A DNA stretch of 64,000 bases, from assembly GCF_900109545.1 (NCBI RefSeq), contig NZ_FOAP01000010.1, positions 186,001 to 250,000 on the forward strand, written 5' to 3'. The notes under the pieces are model-generated. The model ran no database searches. It was given only the letters and a program-made list of their open reading frames with translations, and was not told where the DNA came from. A program made the translations under genes and the position numbers. This document shows positions 8,946-18,161 of this stretch, in pieces (positions within the stretch are counted from its first letter, which is position 1; each line of letters starts with the position of its first letter). This DNA is from Stigmatella aurantiaca (lineage in GTDB: Bacteria; Myxococcota; Myxococcia; Myxococcales; Myxococcaceae).

Positions 8946-10457
8946 TCACCCCTTGAGGGGGTTCTTCTTCTTGAGCATTTCCTGCACCAGCCGGGCAGCG
9001 CGCATCCCCGCCAGGAACTCGCCCTCCAGCCCCAAACCCGGCAGCACCTCGCGGCCCGCCAGCAGGATGTTCTTCGCCTGCGTGCGCTGGTTCAAACCCG
9101 TGACGCCCAGGAAGGCTTCCGCCTCGAAGGAGTACAGGGGGTGGGGCATCAGCCGACTCCCGCGCACCCCGCCCGCGTCCAGGTAGGGGACCGAGCGCAG
9201 CACCCGCTTGCCCTGCGTGAAGGGCATCAGCCCATCCAGGTGCGTGTCGATGCGCTGAGCCACCTTCTGGAGGTGCTCCTCGCCCAGCTCCCGCGCGCTG
9301 GCGGGGATGAAGACCCCGGCGCAGACGATGCGCAGCGCCTCGTCCTCCTTGCCGCCGGGCGTGCGTGCCGGGTGCTGCTGGATCAGCATCGCGCCCAGCT
9401 CCGCGTCCTCGGTGTCCATGAGCAGCAGCTCGCCCATGCCCCGCGGCAGCGCCTCCACCGGCACCACCCAGTTCACCGTGAACAGCAGCGAGCGGGTGGT
9501 GGAGGCGTCCAACTGCTCCAGCAGGCCCCGGTGCCGCTTGCGGTCCGTGACGAGCCGCCGCAAAGCCCCCGAGTCCGTGGCGGCCACCAGACACGAGGCC
9601 CGGTACACCACGTCCGAGCGCAGCACCTTCACGCCCTCGAAGCGGGCCCCATCGAAGGTGAGCTCCTCCACGATGAAGCTCTCGGAGTTCTCCCGGCTGA
9701 GCACGTCCCCTCCCAGCTCGGTCAGCCGCTTGACGAGCAGCTCCCGCAGGCCCTCCGTGCCGCCCGGGTAGCGCTGGGGCGACTGGAGCGCCTGGGACAG
9801 CGGGCGGGTGAGCGCCAGCGGCGCGGAGGACTTGTCCAGGTGGGTGAGGAATGGCTGAAGCGCGCGCAGCAGCGCTCCCGGCGGGGTGTTGCTGGAGATC
9901 CGCGGGTGGGCCTCCAGCCCCTCGTGCTGGCGGATGCGCTTGTTGAGCTTCCACGTCTCCAGCATGCCGTCGGGCGGCAGGTTGGGCTGTTCCTTGAAGA
10001 ACGCGTCGCTGGCCTCGTGCTGGGTGGTGGTCGCCGAGAGCGCCGAGAACAGCCCCTCGGCCGTCTCCCCGAACTCGCGCCCCAGCTCCGCGCGGCGGCG
10101 GGTCAGGTCGCCGTGCAGGTCCACCCGGTGGCGCGGGAGGATGAGCTGCAGCTCGGGCACGTGGGAGCGCAGGTTGCGCTGAATCGTGGACGTCAGGCCC
10201 AGCTCGGTGAATGCCTCCTCCACCGAGGGCATGGCCTTCAGGGATGGGGTGATGGACGGGGTGTAGGGCAGAATGTAGCCCCCGTGCTCGTAGCCCGTGC
10301 CCGTGCCGTCGTGCTCGATGAGCAGCACCCGGTGGCTGCGCCGCGCCAGGAGCGCGGCCGCGAGGGCCCCACCAATCTGGCTGCCCAGGACAATCGCGTC
10401 ATAGACGTGCCGGGAAGGGCCCGAGGGAAGCTGAAGTCTGGCTGGTTGCGTCGCCAT
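8946..10457 (-). CDS. FAD-dependent oxidoreductase, phytoene-desaturase/CrtI-like
   Basis: The 503-residue protein has an N-terminal dinucleotide-binding fold, [21 protein letters not shown] then LLIEHD at about residues 20-50, and the C-terminal FAD-closing segment [22 protein letters not shown], in the layout of amine oxidase/phytoene desaturase proteins. The P-loop has GSQIGG rather than the usual GxGxxG. Substrate unknown; carotenoid or isoprenoid oxidation is possible given the prenyltransferase cluster 2.3 kb away, but there is no direct link. TAGTGT lies 9 nt before the ATG, with no Shine-Dalgarno sequence. Confidence 0.75.
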
Positions 10458-11215: not shown

Positions 11216-12679
11216 TCACGCGGCGTTGGAAGGCCCTTCCACGGGGGCCGGGGCGGGCTTGAGCAGGGTGACCTTCGGTCCCACGAAGGTGTGCCGCTGC
11301 GCCACGATCCAGTAGAGCGCCAGCAGGGCAAGCGCCCCGGCGAAGGTGTAGCCTGCCAGCTCGTTGGGCGGCAGCACGAAGAGCACCGTGATGGTGCCGC
11401 ACCACACGAGCGCCACCAGGTTGATGGGGGTGGACCAGCGCCCCAAATCCCACGGGCCCCGGTGGGACCAGGTGCCGTTGCGGCGGGCCCGCCACCCCAC
11501 CCAGATGGGCAGCGCGTAGGAGGCATAGAGCGCCAGGGTGCTCAGCGCCACCATGGCCGCATAGGCGCCGCTCCAGATGGCCACGAGGAACGCGCCCGCC
11601 GCGCTGACCCAGACGGCCACGTACGGGCTCTGGAACCGCCCGGACACGCGGGCGAGCTGCGCCGAGGCGGGAAGCCCATTGTCGCGCGCGAACGCGAAGA
11701 GCATGCGCGAGTTGGAGGTGATGGAGGAGAGGCCGCAGAACCACATCGCGCCAATCGCCACCCACACCAGCGCCCCGCCCAGCGCCGGGCCCAGCGCGGT
11801 GGTCAGCACGTGGATGAAGGGGTTGGGCGCCGCCGCCGCCGAAGGCAGGTCCGTGATGGCCAGCGTCACCGCGGCGAGCAGGCCGTAGCCCACCACAGCG
11901 CTCACGGCCACCGAGAGGAAGATGCCCCAGGGGGCGTTGCGCGTGGGGTCCACCGTCTCCTCGGAGACGTGGGCGCTCGCGTCGTAGCCGGTGAAGGTCC
12001 ACTGGGCCTGCAGCAGGCCGATGAGGAAGCCGTAGAGGTAGACGTGGTTGCCCGTGGTGAACCGGGTGAGCAGGAAGGCCGGGTCCTGCTTGGGCGCGAA
12101 CGCGACGAGCGCCCCGATGACCACCGCCACGCCGGCCACGTGGTACCAGGCCGACAGGTTGTTGAGCCAGGCCACCGCGCGCACCCCCACGTGGTTGAGC
12201 ACCGCGTGCGAGGTGAGGATGGCGGCGTACAGGGGCAGCACGGAGCCACGCTCCCGCGGCCAGCCGAGCATGTCCGCGACGAACTCGGCCAGCCCGTAGT
12301 CGATGCCCGCGGTGATGGCGAACTGGCCCACGGTGTTGAACCAGGCAGTGAAGAAGCCCACGCGGGGGCCCCCCAGCATCGCGGACCAGTGGTAGAGCGC
12401 GCCCGCCGTGGGAAAGGACGAGGCGAGCTGCGCGAGGCTCGCCGCCACTGTGAGCGTCATCACCGAGACCAGGGGCCAGCCAATGCCCATGACGAGCGGG
12501 CCACCGAAGTTCAGGCCGTGGCCGTAGAGCGTCACCGCCCCGGTGAGGATGGAAATGATGGAGAAGGAGACGGCGAAGTTGGAGAAGCCCCCCATGTCGC
12601 GAAGCAGCTGCTGCCCGTAGCCCAGCCCCTGGAGCTGGGCCGCATCGGCTTCCTTCTGACGCGCCCGATCTTCACTCAT
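11216..12679 (-). CDS. APC-family amino acid permease
   Basis: This is an integral membrane transporter of about 12 helices, 487 residues from the ATG at 12679. The signatures fit the APC superfamily amino acid/GABA permease branch: DMGGFSNFAVSFSIISILTG in helix 1, the FPTAGALYHW loop, TGYDASAHVSEET in the helix 6 region, and SSITSNSRMLFAFARDNGLP. Import of an amino acid or amine is expected; substrate unknown. A GTG two codons upstream is possible, but the -10 box ends next to it, so the ATG is preferred. The gene diverges from the prenyltransferase operon. Confidence 0.88.
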   Translation of the reverse strand: MSEDRARQKEADAAQLQGLGYGQQLLRDMGGFSNFAVSFSIISILTGAVTLYGHGLNFGGPLVMGIGWPLVSVMTLTVAASLAQLASSFPTAGALYHWSAMLGGPRVGFFTAWFNTVGQFAITAGIDYGLAEFVADMLGWPRERGSVLPLYAAILTSHAVLNHVGVRAVAWLNNLSAWYHVAGVAVVIGALVAFAPKQDPAFLLTRFTTGNHVYLYGFLIGLLQAQWTFTGYDASAHVSEETVDPTRNAPWGIFLSVAVSAVVGYGLLAAVTLAITDLPSAAAAPNPFIHVLTTALGPALGGALVWVAIGAMWFCGLSSITSNSRMLFAFARDNGLPASAQLARVSGRFQSPYVAVWVSAAGAFLVAIWSGAYAAMVALSTLALYASYALPIWVGWRARRNGTWSHRGPWDLGRWSTPINLVALVWCGTITVLFVLPPNELAGYTFAGALALLALYWIVAQRHTFVGPKVTLLKPAPAPVEGPSNAA

Positions 12680-12686
12680 AGTCACA

Positions 12687-12716: not shown

Positions 12717-12783
12717 CCCCCGGGGGGGCTGACACCCTGCCGCGCATGTGGATGGACAACAGTCTTACGGGAGAGGAGCGCGG

Positions 12784-13719
12784 GTGAGCCCCCTGCGGCG
12801 GTGGGTGTACGCGCTGAAGCCCGCGAGCTGGCCGAAGGTGTTCGTGCCAGCGCTGCTGGGCCAGGCCCTGGGGGCGGCCAGCACGGGCAGGGTGTCGGTG
12901 GGCGCGCTGGCCTTTGGCCTGCTGTGGATGATCGCCGATGTCGCCTTCGTCGTGTTGCTCAACGACTGGGGGGATCGCGAGGTGGATGCGCTCAAGCGCC
13001 GCATGTTCCCGCGCGGGTGCTCTCCGAAGACCATCCCCGACGGCATCCTTCCCGCCCGGGCCGTGCTCGCGGCGGGCCTCGGGGCCGGGGCGGTGGCGCT
13101 GCTCCTCGCGGCGGTGGCGGGAAGGCTCCTGGAGCGCCCCGCGTTGCTGCCGCTGGCGGCGCTGGGGCTGTTCGTGTTCGCCGCTTACACGCTGCCGCCC
13201 TTGCGGCTCAATTACCGGGGTGGGGGAGAGCTGCTGGAGATGGTGGGCGTGGGGGGCGTGCTCCCGGTGCTGCATGCCTATGCGCAGGGTGGGGTGTGGC
13301 TCCCCCTGGAGCTGAAGCTCGTGATGCCGGGGCTGCTGGCGCTCTGCCTGGCGAGCGCGCTCGCCAGCGGGCTGTCCGACGAGGAGAGTGACCGGGCGGG
13401 AGGAAAGCGCACGTTCACCACGCTCCTGGGCAACACGGTGTCCCGCCGTGCCTCCGAGGTTCTGCTGGTGCTGGGCGCGCTGCTCTGGCTCGGGGCCGCG
13501 GGGTGGGCCCGGGGCGCCCTGCTCCAGGGAAGCTTGGTGCTCGGTGCGCTGCTCACGCTATTCTTCGCGGCGCGCGTGTGGAGCAAGAGCCCCTCGGCGG
13601 TGACGAATGCGTTTGGTGCCCAATCGGCCTACAAGCTGGAGCTGCATCGTGCCATCTGGTGGGGCTCCACCTTGCTGTCCATTCTGGTGCTCGCGGTAGG
13701 GCTGGGGGCGCAACGGTGA
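12784..13719 (+). CDS. UbiA-family prenyltransferase (first copy)
   Basis: The GTG at 12784, with GAGAGGAG about 6 nt upstream, gives 311 residues. It is a polytopic membrane prenyltransferase: the first Asp motif is NDWGDREVD (60-68) and the second is DEESDRAGGKRTF (from 199), both needed for magnesium and prenyl diphosphate. Lys-Arg-Thr after the second motif recalls MenA. It transfers an isoprenoid chain to an unknown acceptor. The stop overlaps the next gene in a GTGA, and a second UbiA paralogue follows one gene later. An in-frame GTG at 12748 is a longer, less likely start. Confidence 0.85.
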   Translation: MSPLRRWVYALKPASWPKVFVPALLGQALGAASTGRVSVGALAFGLLWMIADVAFVVLLNDWGDREVDALKRRMFPRGCSPKTIPDGILPARAVLAAGLGAGAVALLLAAVAGRLLERPALLPLAALGLFVFAAYTLPPLRLNYRGGGELLEMVGVGGVLPVLHAYAQGGVWLPLELKLVMPGLLALCLASALASGLSDEESDRAGGKRTFTTLLGNTVSRRASEVLLVLGALLWLGAAGWARGALLQGSLVLGALLTLFFAARVWSKSPSAVTNAFGAQSAYKLELHRAIWWGSTLLSILVLAVGLGAQR

Positions 13720-14441
13720 GCGAGTTGCCGGAAGGCCTGCGCCTCGAGCTGGAGGGGTTGAAGCCCCTGCTGGGGAACTGCGCCTCGCTGGATGCCACGC
13801 GGGCCCGGGCGCCCTTTCCCCACGAGCTGGCGGCTCGGCTGATGGAGGGCCGCGGCGACATGGAGCAGCGCCGCGCCTTCGTGCAGGGATTGATCGACGT
13901 GGTGCGCGCCATCCTGGAGGACTTCCCGGACAACATCTTCTGGGACCTGGATTACCTGGCGAGCTGCCTGTGGCTTGCCGGAGGCCCGCGCGAGACGGAG
14001 CACCTCGCGGGCCGGGTGGTGCGGCTGTGCCGTGGCTTCGGCAACAAGTCCAAGCTGCGCTTCCGGTACGCCCACGACTTCCTGTTCGGCTACGACTGGG
14101 CCCGCTGGGTCCTGCGTGAGCCGGAAGGGCGCGAGGACACAGGGCCGTTCGATCTCGGCTTTCTGGACTACCTCGATGCCCGGTGCCAGGAGTTGGTAGA
14201 GCTGATCTCCCGCAGCGACGCCAAGTATGGCCCCCTCCAGGGGCCGGAGTTCCGCAATCCCTTCATCTTCTGCCGCGAGCCCGCCGACGAGGCCCACCTG
14301 CACCGAGTGCTCGCCCGGGAGGATCTCATCCCGGTCAAGGCCTGGCGCTTCGATGGGGAGCGCCGCTGGCACCTGCCCTTCACCGACTTGAGGGCCGAGG
14401 CGGCCCTGCGCCTGGGCCTGTCGCGGAAGGCCGGACCATGA
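13716..14441 (+). CDS. Unrecognised protein between two prenyltransferase genes
   Basis: The 241-residue protein is soluble, without signal or membrane segments. I do not recognise the family. Visible features are an acidic/aromatic centre (DNIFWDLDYLAS), a basic stretch (GFGNKSKLRFRYAHDFLFGYDWARW) and a C-terminal part with FIFCREPADE. It overlaps the upstream UbiA stop by 4 bases (GTGA) and the downstream UbiA start by 4 bases (ATGA), so it is translated in step with both. A role in the same pathway, as enzyme or accessory, is an inference from position only. Confidence 0.7.
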   Translation: MSELPEGLRLELEGLKPLLGNCASLDATRARAPFPHELAARLMEGRGDMEQRRAFVQGLIDVVRAILEDFPDNIFWDLDYLASCLWLAGGPRETEHLAGRVVRLCRGFGNKSKLRFRYAHDFLFGYDWARWVLREPEGREDTGPFDLGFLDYLDARCQELVELISRSDAKYGPLQGPEFRNPFIFCREPADEAHLHRVLAREDLIPVKAWRFDGERRWHLPFTDLRAEAALRLGLSRKAGP

Positions 14442-15346
14442 CGGCGGGAAAGGGGACGCTCCGGGATTGGCTCCAAGCATCCCGGCTGCCCTCCCAGTCG
14501 TACATCGCGCTTCCGCTGTTGCTCGGGCAGCTCGTGGCCCTGCGCGCGCAGGGAGGGGACATCCCGTACGGGCTCCTGCTGTGCGTGCAGCTCTTCGGAG
14601 TCTTCGATCAGCTCTTCATCGTCTACGCCAATGACTGGGCGGACCAGGAGACCGATCGCCGCAACCAGACGGCCACCCCTTTCTCGGGGGGCTCCCGGGT
14701 GCTGGTCGAGGGGTGCATCTCGCCCCGGGCGCTGGGCGGGGCAGCCCTCTTCTGCGCGGCCGCGATGCTGGCGGTGTCGGTGGGCCTGGCGGTGGTCCAA
14801 GGGGCGCCTGGGCTCGTGCCGCTGGCCTTCGCCGCGTTGGGGCTGTTGTGGGCCTACAGCTATCCGCCCGTGCGGCTCTCCTATCGCGGGGGAGGGGAGT
14901 TGCTGCAGATGGTGGGGGTCGCCGGGGTGCTCCCGCTCTATGGCTACCTGGCTCAGGGGGGGGACTTGGGACGTTTTCCGTGGCCCCTCACCGTGGCGTT
15001 GCTCCCCACCCATCTGGCCTGTGCCATCGCCACGGCGCTTCCGGATGAGCCCTCGGACCGGGACAGCCACAAGCGCACGGTGCCCGTCCGGCTCGGAGGG
15101 GAACAGGCCGTGTGGATCATCGCGGCGCTGAATGGGCTCTCGCTGGCGTTGGCCCCGTGGGGGCTGGCCTCCCTGGGCATGACGGCTGGTTGGGCCCTGG
15201 CCGTTCCCGCCGCGGCCACGCTCGCGGTGCTGGGCCTGCGCCCCGCGCCTCCGGGGTCTTTGCTCATCCAAGCCCGGGTCGCGGCCTGCATCACCGCCAC
15301 CCTGGCCGTGGTGGCCATTCCCCTCCTGGGCCTGACGGCCAGGTGA
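14438..15346 (+). CDS. UbiA-family prenyltransferase (second copy)
   Basis: This 302-residue membrane protein is a paralogue of the first UbiA gene in the operon: NDWADQETD at 65-73, a middle AYSYPPVRLSYRGGGELLQMVG nearly identical in layout to the first copy, and DEPSDRDSHKRTVPVRLGG from residue 203, very MenA-like. The ATG overlaps the upstream stop (ATGA). Two related prenyltransferases side by side suggest two prenylation steps or a heteromeric enzyme. The lycopene-cyclase-like gene follows 7 nt downstream. Confidence 0.85.
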   Translation: MTAGKGTLRDWLQASRLPSQSYIALPLLLGQLVALRAQGGDIPYGLLLCVQLFGVFDQLFIVYANDWADQETDRRNQTATPFSGGSRVLVEGCISPRALGGAALFCAAAMLAVSVGLAVVQGAPGLVPLAFAALGLLWAYSYPPVRLSYRGGGELLQMVGVAGVLPLYGYLAQGGDLGRFPWPLTVALLPTHLACAIATALPDEPSDRDSHKRTVPVRLGGEQAVWIIAALNGLSLALAPWGLASLGMTAGWALAVPAAATLAVLGLRPAPPGSLLIQARVAACITATLAVVAIPLLGLTAR

Positions 15347-15353
15347 GGTAGAC

Positions 15354-16043
15354 GTGCCTTACGACTTCCTGGTGCTGGCGCTGCTGTTCCTGGTTCCAGG
15401 CATCGTCATCGCCTTTCTGCGGCCGGATTTGCGCTGGCTGATGGCGAGGGCCGCCCTGCTCGCGCTCCCGTTCGCGGCGACGGAGTGGCTCTTCTACCCG
15501 GAGTACTGGTCGCCCAGGTTTCTGTTCGGGCTGGCGGACCGGATCGGCTTTGGCATCGAGGACGTGCTGTTCGTTGCTGGGCTGGGGGCCTTTTCCTCCA
15601 CCGCCTACGCCGTCGCCTTCCGCCAAGGGGTGCGCCTCCGGGAAGGCGTCTCCCGGCCTTGGCGGCGGGGCGCGCTCGCCATCGTGGCCGTGCTGGCCCT
15701 GGCGGGGGCCTTGCGGATGGTGGGGGTGCCCATCCTCTATGCCGCCGTCGTGGCGATGGGGCTGGGCGCCGGGGGCGTGCTGTGGGCTCGCAGGGACTTG
15801 TGGGGTCCCGGTGTCCTGGGGGCCCTGGTGTCGATGGGGCTCTACCTCGGGCTGTGCCTGATCTTCGCGGCGCTCGTTCCGGGTGTCTTCGAGCGCGCGT
15901 GGCGGCCGAGCCTCCTGCTGCCAGGAAAGTTCCTGGGCGTCCCGCTCGATGAGCTGCTGTACGGGCTGGGCGCGGGGCTGGCCGCCACGGTGTTTCCGGC
16001 GTGGGCCTTTGGCTTCGGCTTCACCCCGCTCTCACGGCGGTGA
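15354..16043 (+). CDS. Lycopene-cyclase-domain membrane protein
   Basis: The 229-residue protein has about seven hydrophobic helices arranged as two related halves, as in bacterial CrtYc/CrtYd-type lycopene cyclases. Each half carries a membrane acidic motif with aromatic follow-up: EYW...GIEDVLF in the first half and VPLDELLYGLGAGLAAT in the second, corresponding to the P-x-E-E-x-x-F motif of the family. It would cyclise the end of a carotenoid or other isoprenoid. GTG start with GAGG 7 nt upstream. It closes the UbiA operon. The family call is from motif and topology. Confidence 0.65.
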   Translation: MPYDFLVLALLFLVPGIVIAFLRPDLRWLMARAALLALPFAATEWLFYPEYWSPRFLFGLADRIGFGIEDVLFVAGLGAFSSTAYAVAFRQGVRLREGVSRPWRRGALAIVAVLALAGALRMVGVPILYAAVVAMGLGAGGVLWARRDLWGPGVLGALVSMGLYLGLCLIFAALVPGVFERAWRPSLLLPGKFLGVPLDELLYGLGAGLAATVFPAWAFGFGFTPLSRR

Positions 16044-16048: not shown

Positions 16049-17143
16049 CTACGGCTTTGGCAGGTCCAGCCGGTAGAGGCGGATGGGCCACTCGATCTTC
16101 GACTCCTTGTTGTTGAAGAGCCCCACCCGGTCCATCTGGGGAACGGGCAGCCAGATCGTTCCCTTGCGATCGAGATAGGGGGCGTCCGTCCAGTGCAGGC
16201 GCGGGTCGGTGAGGACGGTCTCCACGCGGCGGTCCGGGGTCAGCTTGCGCAGGCTGTGGGTGGCCAGCTCGGTGAAGTAGAGGTTGCCCTGGGCGTCCAT
16301 GGCGGTGCCGCCCACGGGGGGCAGGTCGAACCACTTCTCCACCTTGGAGGCCAGCGTGGCGGCGTCGAGGCTGGCGTCATCCAGCCAGCGCGTCTCGATG
16401 CGGTAGAGCGGCCCTTCGAGCGGCGCGAAGTAGAACCAGCGCCCATCCGGGCTGAGCTCCAGCGGATCCGCGTTGACCTTGAGCGGCTGGCCATCCGGGG
16501 CGAGGACCGTCTTGCCGCCGACCGTGATGGGTCGGTTGCCGGGGGCGGAGGTGAAGGGGCTGTTGTCCAGGACGCGCCGGGCGGCGCCGGTCTCCACGTT
16601 CAGCACGATGAGGCCCGGGCGCCCCGCGTCGGTCAGGTAGGCCTGCTGGCCGTTGAAGCGGATGTCGTCGACGTAGCTGTTCTCCGTCGCGACCTCGGAC
16701 CCCAGGACATAGACCCGCGCGACCTTCCGCGTCTTCAGGTCGATGCGGACGAGCTTGGCGCCGCCCGGAATCACGGTGCCGCCGAAGCCCGAGGCGCCCG
16801 TGTCGATGACCCAGAGGCCGTTGTTCTGGTCCCGGTGGATGGCGTTGACGTTGATGAACCCCTTGCTGGGGTCCTTGCCGGGTTGCCAGTCGTTCCAGGC
16901 CTCATCGGGGAAGGGCACGGGCTTGCCCTTGGCGTCGATCTCCGCCACGGAGGGGCCCTGGGAGCCGGTCCACCGGGGGCCGCTGACCAGCACCCGGCCC
17001 TGGTCGTCCACGGCGACACCGTTCCAGATCATCTCGTGGCTCTCCGCGGCGATGGCCAGGGAGGGCGGGGCCGCATGGGCCTGGGGAGCGAGGGGGCTGC
17101 CAAGAAGGACGAGCGCGGCGCTGAAGGAGAGGAGCGTTTTCAT
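16049..17143 (-). CDS. Secreted major-royal-jelly/yellow-family protein
   Basis: From the ATG at 17143 the product is 364 residues with a signal peptide ending about AHA-AP. The body is a predicted six-bladed beta-propeller of the MRJP/yellow (SMP-30-like) type: NGVAVDDQGRVLV, SKGFINVNAIHRDQNNGLWVIDTG, SYVDDIRFNGQQAYLTDAG, and DPLELSPDGRWFYFAPL follow the family pattern. Bacterial members are often annotated as lactonase- or dopachrome-tautomerase-like, but activity is unproven. An ATG at 17152 would add three residues. The gene diverges from a LysR regulator, its likely controller. Confidence 0.8.
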   Translation of the reverse strand: MKTLLSFSAALVLLGSPLAPQAHAAPPSLAIAAESHEMIWNGVAVDDQGRVLVSGPRWTGSQGPSVAEIDAKGKPVPFPDEAWNDWQPGKDPSKGFINVNAIHRDQNNGLWVIDTGASGFGGTVIPGGAKLVRIDLKTRKVARVYVLGSEVATENSYVDDIRFNGQQAYLTDAGRPGLIVLNVETGAARRVLDNSPFTSAPGNRPITVGGKTVLAPDGQPLKVNADPLELSPDGRWFYFAPLEGPLYRIETRWLDDASLDAATLASKVEKWFDLPPVGGTAMDAQGNLYFTELATHSLRKLTPDRRVETVLTDPRLHWTDAPYLDRKGTIWLPVPQMDRVGLFNNKESKIEWPIRLYRLDLPKP

Positions 17144-17210
17144 GCGGCGCATCCTGGGTGCTTTCCGCGAGGTGAAGAACGCGCTACGGAGGACAAACAC
17201 TTTCTTCTGA

Positions 17211-18161
17211 ATGACGAAAATGGTCCGACTCGAAGACCTCCAGGTGTTCGTCGCGGCGGCGGATGCGGGCAGCTTCTCGGCCGCCTCCCGCGTGCTGAAC
17301 CTGACGCCGGCGGTGGCCAGCACGGCCATGAAGCGGCTGGAGCGGGAGCTCGATGTCCGCCTCTTCGTCCGCTCCACCCGAAGCCTGCGCCTGACCGACG
17401 AAGGGGAGCGCTACCTCTCGCACGCACGGCTCGCGCTGAAGGCCCTGGAGGATGGCCAGATGACGGTGGCCCGGAAGAAGGGCGGCCTGACCGGGATCCT
17501 CAAGCTGTCCGTGCCCTCGGACTTCGGGCGCAACGTGTTGCTGCCGTGGCTGGATGCGTTCCAGGACCAGTTTCCGAAGCTCACCGTGCAGATGCGGGTC
17601 AGCGATCGCGTGGCGGACCTGTACCGCCAGCCGGTGGATGTCGCCATCCGCTACGGCGTGCTAGAGGACTCCGCGCTGGTGTCACAGCCGCTCGCCCCCA
17701 CCAACCGCCGGGCGCTGTGCGCCGCCCCGGCCTACCTCGCACGCCACGGTGCCCCCGCGTCCCTGGAGGACCTGCGCCGCCACAACTGCCTGCGCTTCAC
17801 GCTGGGGGACGTGGTGCATGACCGCTGGACCTTTCACGGGCCTCAAGGCGCCGAGGTCATCACCGTGGATGGCAACCGGTTCTGCGATGATGCCGATGTG
17901 GTCCGCCGCTGGGCCTTGGCAGGGCAGGGCCTCGTCTACAAGTCGTTCCTGGATCTGGCGGGGGATCTGCAAGCCGGGCGCCTCGTGCCCGTGCTGCCCG
18001 AGTACCGGGGCGAGGCCACACCCCTTCACCTGGTCTGCGCGCACCGCTCGCTGCTCTCGCCCGCGGTGGCCCGGTTGCGCGACTTCCTGAAGGCCCGCTG
18101 CGAGGCGCTGCTCGCCACGATGGAGCCTCTGCTGTCGCCCCCTACAAGTCCTCGTCGCTGA
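17211..18161 (+). CDS. LysR-family transcriptional regulator
   Basis: The 316-residue protein has the LysR N-terminal winged helix (LEDLQVFVAAADAGSFSAASRVLNLTPAVASTAMKRLE, residues about 7-45) followed by a LysR substrate-binding domain (GILKLSVPSDFGRNVLLPWL onward). The RLFVRSTRSLRLTDEGERYL segment places it in the large CrgA-like subgroup. It is divergent from the MRJP gene across a 67-nt gap, the classical LysR/target layout. Its last 20 bases overlap the convergent DUF523 gene. Confidence 0.9.
   Translation: MTKMVRLEDLQVFVAAADAGSFSAASRVLNLTPAVASTAMKRLERELDVRLFVRSTRSLRLTDEGERYLSHARLALKALEDGQMTVARKKGGLTGILKLSVPSDFGRNVLLPWLDAFQDQFPKLTVQMRVSDRVADLYRQPVDVAIRYGVLEDSALVSQPLAPTNRRALCAAPAYLARHGAPASLEDLRRHNCLRFTLGDVVHDRWTFHGPQGAEVITVDGNRFCDDADVVRRWALAGQGLVYKSFLDLAGDLQAGRLVPVLPEYRGEATPLHLVCAHRSLLSPAVARLRDFLKARCEALLATMEPLLSPPTSPRR

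Follow-up and report, generated by a model that had tools for sequence, protein, structure and literature searches.

What is made by an operon that pairs UbiA-type membrane prenyltransferases with a lycopene-cyclase domain while the carotenoid genes of its host lie elsewhere? The question is raised by four genes of Stigmatella aurantiaca (assembly GCF_900109545.1), carried by a stretch of 64,000 nucleotides which is called here, as a whole, the window (contig NZ_FOAP01000010.1, positions 186,001 to 250,000 of the forward strand). They encode two putative prenyltransferases (UbiA1 and UbiA2), a soluble protein that falls in no family (UNK) and a membrane protein with a lycopene-cyclase domain (LCD). 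Our answer, given tentatively and with a confidence just short of an even call, is that they would specify an undescribed membrane isoprenoid pathway, made of a UbiA2-LCD core and a UbiA1-UNK add-on and leading to a cyclised prenyl lipid or a meroterpenoid. Judging from sequence comparisons, the product is probably something other than a CrtEb-type C50 carotenoid. The genes, and the residues on which the argument turns, are the following.

12784..13719, forward strand: UbiA1, membrane prenyltransferase with a GTG start, PF01040 match, 7 hydrophobic segments, 20 full-length loci in 195 genomes
12961..12987, forward strand: UbiA1 motif I, NDWGDREVD (NDxxDxxxD), defining positions invariant in 10/10 aligned members
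13378..13392, forward strand: UbiA1 motif II, DEESD (DxxxD), invariant in 10/10 aligned members
13716..14441, forward strand: UNK, soluble protein of 241 amino acids without a family, GTGA overlap with UbiA1, 22 confident matches in 195 genomes
14438..15346, forward strand: UbiA2, membrane prenyltransferase, ATGA overlap with UNK, PF01040 match, sister of UbiA1
14630..14656, forward strand: UbiA2 motif I, NDWADQETD (NDxxDxxxD), defining positions invariant in 11/11 members including that of Ilyobacter
15044..15058, forward strand: UbiA2 motif II, DEPSD (DxxxD), defining positions invariant in 11/11 aligned members
15354..16043, forward strand: LCD, lycopene-cyclase-domain membrane protein of 229 amino acids, 7-nucleotide gap after UbiA2, PF18916 match
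15558..15563, forward strand: acidic pair E69-D70 of LCD half 1, invariant in 19/19 aligned members
15948..15953, forward strand: acidic pair D199-E200 of LCD half 2, E200 in 19/19 aligned members, position 199 being D or E

The layout proposed in the sequence-only reading, i.e. a four-gene operon joined by GTGA and ATGA overlaps and a 7-nucleotide gap, was borne out when the sequence was read again. The unit is limited to UbiA1, UNK, UbiA2 and LCD, since the genes on both sides, an amino-acid permease gene and an MRJP-family gene, lie on the opposite strand.

To see how far the four genes travel together, 195 Myxococcota genomes were searched with one profile per protein; the profiles include the first-found carriers, which match by construction. 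The UbiA1 profile gave 20 full-length matches of at least 499 bits, followed by UbiA2 proteins at 123 bits or less and a fragment in genome G065; the UbiA2 profile gave 20 matches of at least 412 bits, followed by UbiA1 proteins (130 bits at most) and by members of a further UbiA family (about 100-107 bits). With LCD, 20 matches and one fragment in G065 were obtained and, with UNK, 22 confident matches and a weak one in G056. Intact copies of UbiA1, of UbiA2 and of LCD occur in one and the same set of 20 genomes out of 195, and UNK in those plus G065 and G126; searches with the single UNK and LCD sequences returned the same genome sets as the profiles. G056 was not counted as a carrier: its UNK match is weak (E 4e-4) and falls within an open frame of 807 codons, and tblastn with eight window proteins found no match in the 14 kb read there. 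When the window was compared with two congeners, the ratio of nonsynonymous to synonymous substitution rates (dN/dS) was 0.19-0.29 for all four genes. Such joint presence, combined with these ratios, excludes an operon assembled by chance: the four genes are a real unit under selection. Fisher tests of the co-occurrence take no account of kinship among the genomes, and their values are not to be taken as probabilities.

Besides the window, 22 loci at which UNK had been matched were read for gene order. Of the 20 carriers with intact genes, 17 show the uninterrupted order UbiA1-UNK-UbiA2-LCD; G122 has two small open reading frames between UbiA2 and LCD, and G094 has its LCD some 22 kb off. UNK and UbiA2 share a strand in 19 intact loci and overlap by 4 nucleotides in every one of them, with starts chosen by a script. 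The genes on either side are common within a genus and different between genera. G126 has UNK without the other three genes. The operon of G065 (locus L042) has apparently decayed by internal deletions, with fragments of UbiA1, UbiA2 and LCD lying in order around a full-length UNK. The LCD alignment was also run against viral contigs, where no relative turned up.

Both UbiA proteins match PF01040 well above its cut-off of 34.2 bits (81.4 for UbiA1, in the version starting at 12748, and 85.5 for UbiA2), the genome of the window having 9 UbiA matches altogether, and the UbiA2 profile matched chlorophyll synthase, UBIAD1 and 4tq3 in the PDB. NDxxDxxxD and DxxxD, which an excerpt of PMC9835599 gives as prenyltransferase motifs, are retained by all aligned members, i.e. 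10 of 10 for UbiA1 and 11 of 11 for UbiA2. LCD matches PF18916 (Lycopene_cyc) with 36.9 bits against a cut-off of 27, over residues 128-215, that is by its second half only; a match to this family (E up to 1) was seen for all 19 aligned LCD members. None of these 19 varies at E44, E69, D70 or E200; at position 199 the rows of the Myxococcaceae side have D, and G187 and Ilyobacter have E. When the two halves are aligned with each other, their acidic pairs fall in register, with a score of 19.25 that was reached by 5 of 150 column shuffles, so that an internal duplication is suggestive at best. For UNK neither a credible Pfam match nor an NCBIfam family was found; the protein has 0 hydrophobic segments and many invariant residues. 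Searches of PDB sequences yielded no usable match for either UNK or LCD.

Two cases divide the unit into modules. In G187, the most distant carrier, which belongs to another family and has 51% guanine plus cytosine, UbiA1-UNK run in one direction and a divergent run comprises an ABC ATPase, an ABC2 permease, UbiA2 and LCD. On the 961-kb replicon of Ilyobacter polytropus we found an LCD 41% identical over 97% of the query, followed after 6 nucleotides by a UbiA2 homologue (45% over 77%), an order reversed with respect to the operon; this is the sole UbiA on that replicon. An excerpt of PMC3035301 describes I. polytropus as a strict anaerobe relying on substrate-linked phosphorylation only, with a genome of two chromosomes (2 and 1 Mb) and a plasmid. 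In the plasmid collection no UNK match was found, and no UbiA1 match either, in a search insensitive enough to miss the Ilyobacter UbiA2 (28% by local search); the count of a single UbiA on the Ilyobacter replicon is the stronger evidence on this point. Because of the G187 split and the Ilyobacter pair, UbiA2-LCD looks like the core and UbiA1-UNK like an addition, as far as two cases allow.

How could such a core work? UbiA2 would move a prenyl group from a diphosphate onto an acceptor; LCD would then protonate the free end of the chain and close the ring. By analogy with lycopene cyclases, the acidic residues of LCD would supply the proton that initiates ring closure. UbiA1 and UNK would perform a second prenylation, on the same or another acceptor, UNK presenting or modifying this acceptor. 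It is from the intact UbiA motifs and the conserved LCD acids that we infer prenyl transfer followed by cyclisation. The order of the reactions, the division of labour between the modules and the service of UNK to UbiA1 would follow from this scheme, whereas the unity of the operon, its co-inheritance, the intact catalytic motifs, the family placement that the curated models give and, in G187 and Ilyobacter, the division into two modules are observed. The earlier suggestion of an undescribed prenylation and cyclisation pathway keeps its ground in so far as the unit is distinct, conserved and seen by us in no characterised pathway, and its last protein is cyclase-like, with an acidic motif in each half; the carotenoid analogy that accompanied it is weak.

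That analogy leads to a first alternative, a C50-type pathway in which UbiA1 and UbiA2 elongate lycopene from a crt cluster elsewhere and LCD cyclises the ends, which we consider unlikely. A UbiA protein plus a lycopene-cyclase domain is the recipe for C50 carotenoids (excerpt of PMC6393565), and the systems CrtEb with CrtYe/CrtYf, LbtA with LbtBC, and LyeJ share with our operon the presence of a UbiA and a lycopene-cyclase-domain membrane protein in one operon. In the Arthrobacter reference these are CrtYe and a fused CrtYf-CrtEb, named here from gene order and family matches because the source record is unannotated there. LCD itself matches PF18916 as do 3 of the 4 reference cyclase subunits, two of those under the cut-off. 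The curated models speak against it more clearly than the tree described below. On NF009608 (cut-off 217) UbiA1 scored 9.9 and UbiA2 19.0 bits, against 469.4 for the reference CrtEb, and on NF009516 (cut-off 205) 33.5 and 27.1 bits, against 397.5 for the reference LyeJ. TIGR03462 (cut-off 39.4) is matched by CrtYc (80.6) and CrtYd (64.5) of the window's own genome and by CrtYe (52.1) and CrtYf (40.0) of Arthrobacter; it left the window LCD unmatched at E up to 1 and, with a limit of E 0.01, also the LCDs of G187, Ilyobacter and Methylophaga. When the LCD halves were compared with the CrtYc, CrtYd, CrtYe and CrtYf sequences, shuffles reached the score in 2 of 150 cases for half 2 and 13 of 150 for half 1, and a direct comparison of the LCD alignment with CrtYc/Yd/Ye/Yf by profile gave no meaningful match. 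The myxobacterial CrtYc/CrtYd heterodimer has PF18916-type domains in common with LCD; it consists of two short proteins of the crt cluster, whereas LCD is a single 229-amino-acid chain. Also unlike the C50 systems, the operon has two UbiAs plus UNK, lacks crtE, crtB and crtI, and occurs in minimal form in a strict anaerobe, on whose 961-kb replicon no PF00494 (phytoene/squalene synthase) match was found, the 2-Mb chromosome being outside the search.

In a 32-row UbiA tree, UbiA1 and UbiA2 form one clade (98/96, starred), each being a starred clade as well, and lie on the MenA-like side, with CrtEb and LyeJ together on the other. The deep order of this tree is unsure because it contains 8 long-branch rows (two pairs of them joined) and 3 rows of odd letter make-up, the Ilyobacter UbiA2 included. 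Forcing the operon UbiAs into a joint clade with the four CrtEb/LyeJ rows was 12.5 log units worse than the best tree (approximately unbiased test, p 0.0595), and placing UbiA1 alone or UbiA2 alone with that clade gave p 0.011 each, a constraint that also splits the two UbiAs. An earlier test using 2 of the 4 CrtEb/LyeJ rows (p 2.76e-12) was withdrawn, since it split LyeJ from its near relatives. The tree thus disfavours, without rejecting, a CrtEb/LyeJ origin of the operon UbiAs, and the parallel with C50 carotenoids is weak at best.

The statement that no phytoene synthase is present is true of the operon; the genome has a crt cluster on another contig, with a polyprenyl synthase, crtI, crtB, a 3-hydroxy-3-methylglutaryl-coenzyme A (HMG-CoA) reductase, a second crtI-family gene and two short cyclase genes. 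In five species, Stigmatella erecta being one of them, crtB and crtD have HMG-CoA reductase between them (excerpt of PMC9304148). The corresponding row of G187 comprises a polyprenyl synthase, a flavoprotein lycopene cyclase (PF05834, 176.6 bits), crtI and crtB. Eleven genomes were tested for carotenoid genes: six intact carriers (G000, which is the window's genome, G187, G095, G061, G093 and G127), G065, G126 and three operon-less congeners. Phytoene-synthase-family and CrtI genes were over the cut-off in all six carriers and in G065 and G126, both of which have operon remnants, so that lycopene is probably available in carriers. Two of the three operon-less congeners also had both genes, the third having neither a phytoene-synthase-family match nor a CrtI over the cut-off; carotenoid clusters also occur without the operon, and their presence in carriers is therefore non-discriminating. 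Squalene was rejected as a general substrate: the single PF00494 gene of G187 adjoins crtI.

Equally unlikely in our estimation is a side branch of quinone metabolism, in which one or both UbiAs would prenylate 1,4-dihydroxy-2-naphthoate (DHNA) or a related quinol and LCD would cyclise the chain, giving a modified menaquinone or a chromanol. There are points in its favour: the operon UbiAs have the Asp-rich motifs of MenA and share its side of the tree, a clade with MenA, absent from the best tree, was 2.7 log units worse and not rejected (p 0.271), and the best NCBIfam model for both is NF004751, DHNA polyprenyltransferase (37.8 bits for UbiA1 and 51.0 for UbiA2). These scores are far under the cut-off of 264, which is passed by the genome's own MenA (331.8 bits), located in a run with MenH (256.3, cut-off 208.55) and MenC (130.9, cut-off 130.55); on TIGR00751 (cut-off 102.15) that MenA reached 215.3 bits and UbiA1 21.2, UbiA2 being unlisted. 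Moreover, unlike MenA, the operon UbiAs lie outside the men cluster, form a separate starred clade and accompany LCD in 20 of 20 intact myxobacterial carriers. In the phylogeny called for by the sequence-only reading they thus group with the quinone enzymes in part, being on the MenA-like side but in a clade of their own in the best tree, and by their model scores they do not look like plain menaquinone enzymes. As Ilyobacter relies on substrate-linked phosphorylation only, a respiratory quinone is not expected there. A third alternative, improbable in our view, is a membrane complex that exports or modifies a lipid carrier, a role already suggested for the UbiA member of the ebo cluster (excerpt of PMC6282210). 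In its favour are the ABC-2 transporter within the UbiA2-LCD run of G187 and the PMT-type glycosyltransferase found directly upstream in three of seven g19 loci (one of the seven being too short to tell). However, by tblastn at E up to 1e-3 the G187 ABC proteins have homologues in none of the other 21 loci, nor in the Ilyobacter stretch or the first 24 kb of the window, and the glycosyltransferase has none outside its three loci; the intact catalytic motifs of both UbiAs favour catalysis. The UbiA superfamily does include terpene synthases, which carry out the cyclisation of a prenyl diphosphate on their own and have the motif pair NxxxG/AxxxD and QDxxDxxxD (both points from the excerpt of PMC9835599); the operon UbiAs have NDxxDxxxD and DxxxD instead. 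This identity was rejected on the motif comparison, and we hold it to be very improbable. As to known meroterpenoid routes, the bacterial Pyr4-like clusters (zig, for example) resemble the operon in combining a UbiA-like prenyltransferase with a compact membrane cyclase that has an acidic catalytic residue. The zig cluster includes a polyprenyl synthase, five P450s and more (excerpt of PMC13307353), whereas the operon has neither polyprenyl synthase nor P450s and the sole credible Pfam match of LCD is PF18916.

Several observations weigh against the cyclised prenyl lipid or meroterpenoid pathway that we favour. In G065 and G126, which have lost the UbiAs and LCD or keep them in decayed form, UNK is intact, with a dN/dS of 0.24-0.39 in three pairs versus 0.25 and 0.36 in two control pairs; it may therefore have a role of its own rather than acting only with UbiA1. 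The carotenoid genes of all six carriers tested make a carotenoid acceptor possible, and the joint clade with CrtEb/LyeJ stays above the usual threshold of the tree test. The first half of LCD has no family match, and the AlphaFold2 models, computed from alignments of the window and two Archangium rows, were poor (predicted local distance difference test values of 43.6 for UNK and 48.2 for LCD). Finally, the Ilyobacter evidence comes from the one replicon searched. A bolder version of the same pathway, which we regard as doubtful, would make UbiA2-LCD a new oxygen-independent pair for prenyl transfer and ring closure, apart from carotenoids and quinones and present in Myxococcota and Fusobacteriota, to which UbiA1-UNK would have been added in myxobacteria and an exporter in G187, the product being an undescribed class of cyclised isoprenoid lipid or meroterpenoid.

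The genes around the operon are the following.

8946-10457, reverse strand: 'CrtI-like' gene, 2.3 kb to the left of the operon, 22.8 bits on crtI_fam
11216-12685, reverse strand: amino-acid permease gene, left flank
16049-17377, reverse strand: MRJP-family gene, right flank

The 'CrtI-like' gene had been pointed out in the sequence-only reading. A link to the pathway is not supported: its crtI_fam score compares with a cut-off of 238.1, which makes it at best a very remote relative of CrtI, and it adjoins the operon only in three loci of the window's genus, of the 22 read. It was rejected as a pathway member on both grounds.

A few related genes were seen elsewhere. The g19 glycosyltransferase gene (L049:8720-10033, L050:8721-10052 and L047:5602-6930, with a PMT_2 match seen for the L050 copy) is directly upstream of UbiA1 in two loci and of a lone UNK in one; family-39 glycosyltransferases lie 3.7-7 kb from the Ilyobacter LCD-UbiA2 pair. 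Lycopene-cyclase-domain genes on Methylophaga and Croceicoccus plasmids (L081:11989-12681 and L146:3150-3856, respectively) share their stretch with isoprenylcysteine-methyltransferase-family and DUF2933 genes, at about 1 kb in Croceicoccus and at more than 10 kb, together with a copper ATPase, in Methylophaga. No annotated carotenoid gene is present on these plasmid stretches, and the Croceicoccus cyclase-domain gene is annotated as two pieces. In the window's genome, two more UbiA genes lie head to head in L003 (G000:C11:13346-17053); the one at 13486-14523 (own_C11b in the tree) has a GGSRVLV stretch in common with UbiA2 and is a member of the next-best-scoring family outside the operon. 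In L008 (G000:C36:20648-24376) a UbiA gene adjoins an acyl-carrier-protein-like gene, as read by eye; we take this UbiA gene to resemble the Stigmatella aurachin prenyltransferase.

No description of the operon was found among the matches listed in full-text literature searches, most subscription journals being outside their coverage, and 'UbiA' is absent from the main text of a preprint on Myxococcota biosynthetic gene clusters (PMC12224551). If the proposed pathway is true, the lycopene-cyclase domain would work beyond carotenoids, alongside MenA-like prenyltransferases in a compact module, and automatic annotation would label such a module as carotenoid or quinone genes. UNK, conserved yet in no family found, is a target for a first functional assignment. 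To conclude, the four-gene operon offers a small, testable route to a lipid or natural product in the myxobacteria, a group mined for its chemistry.

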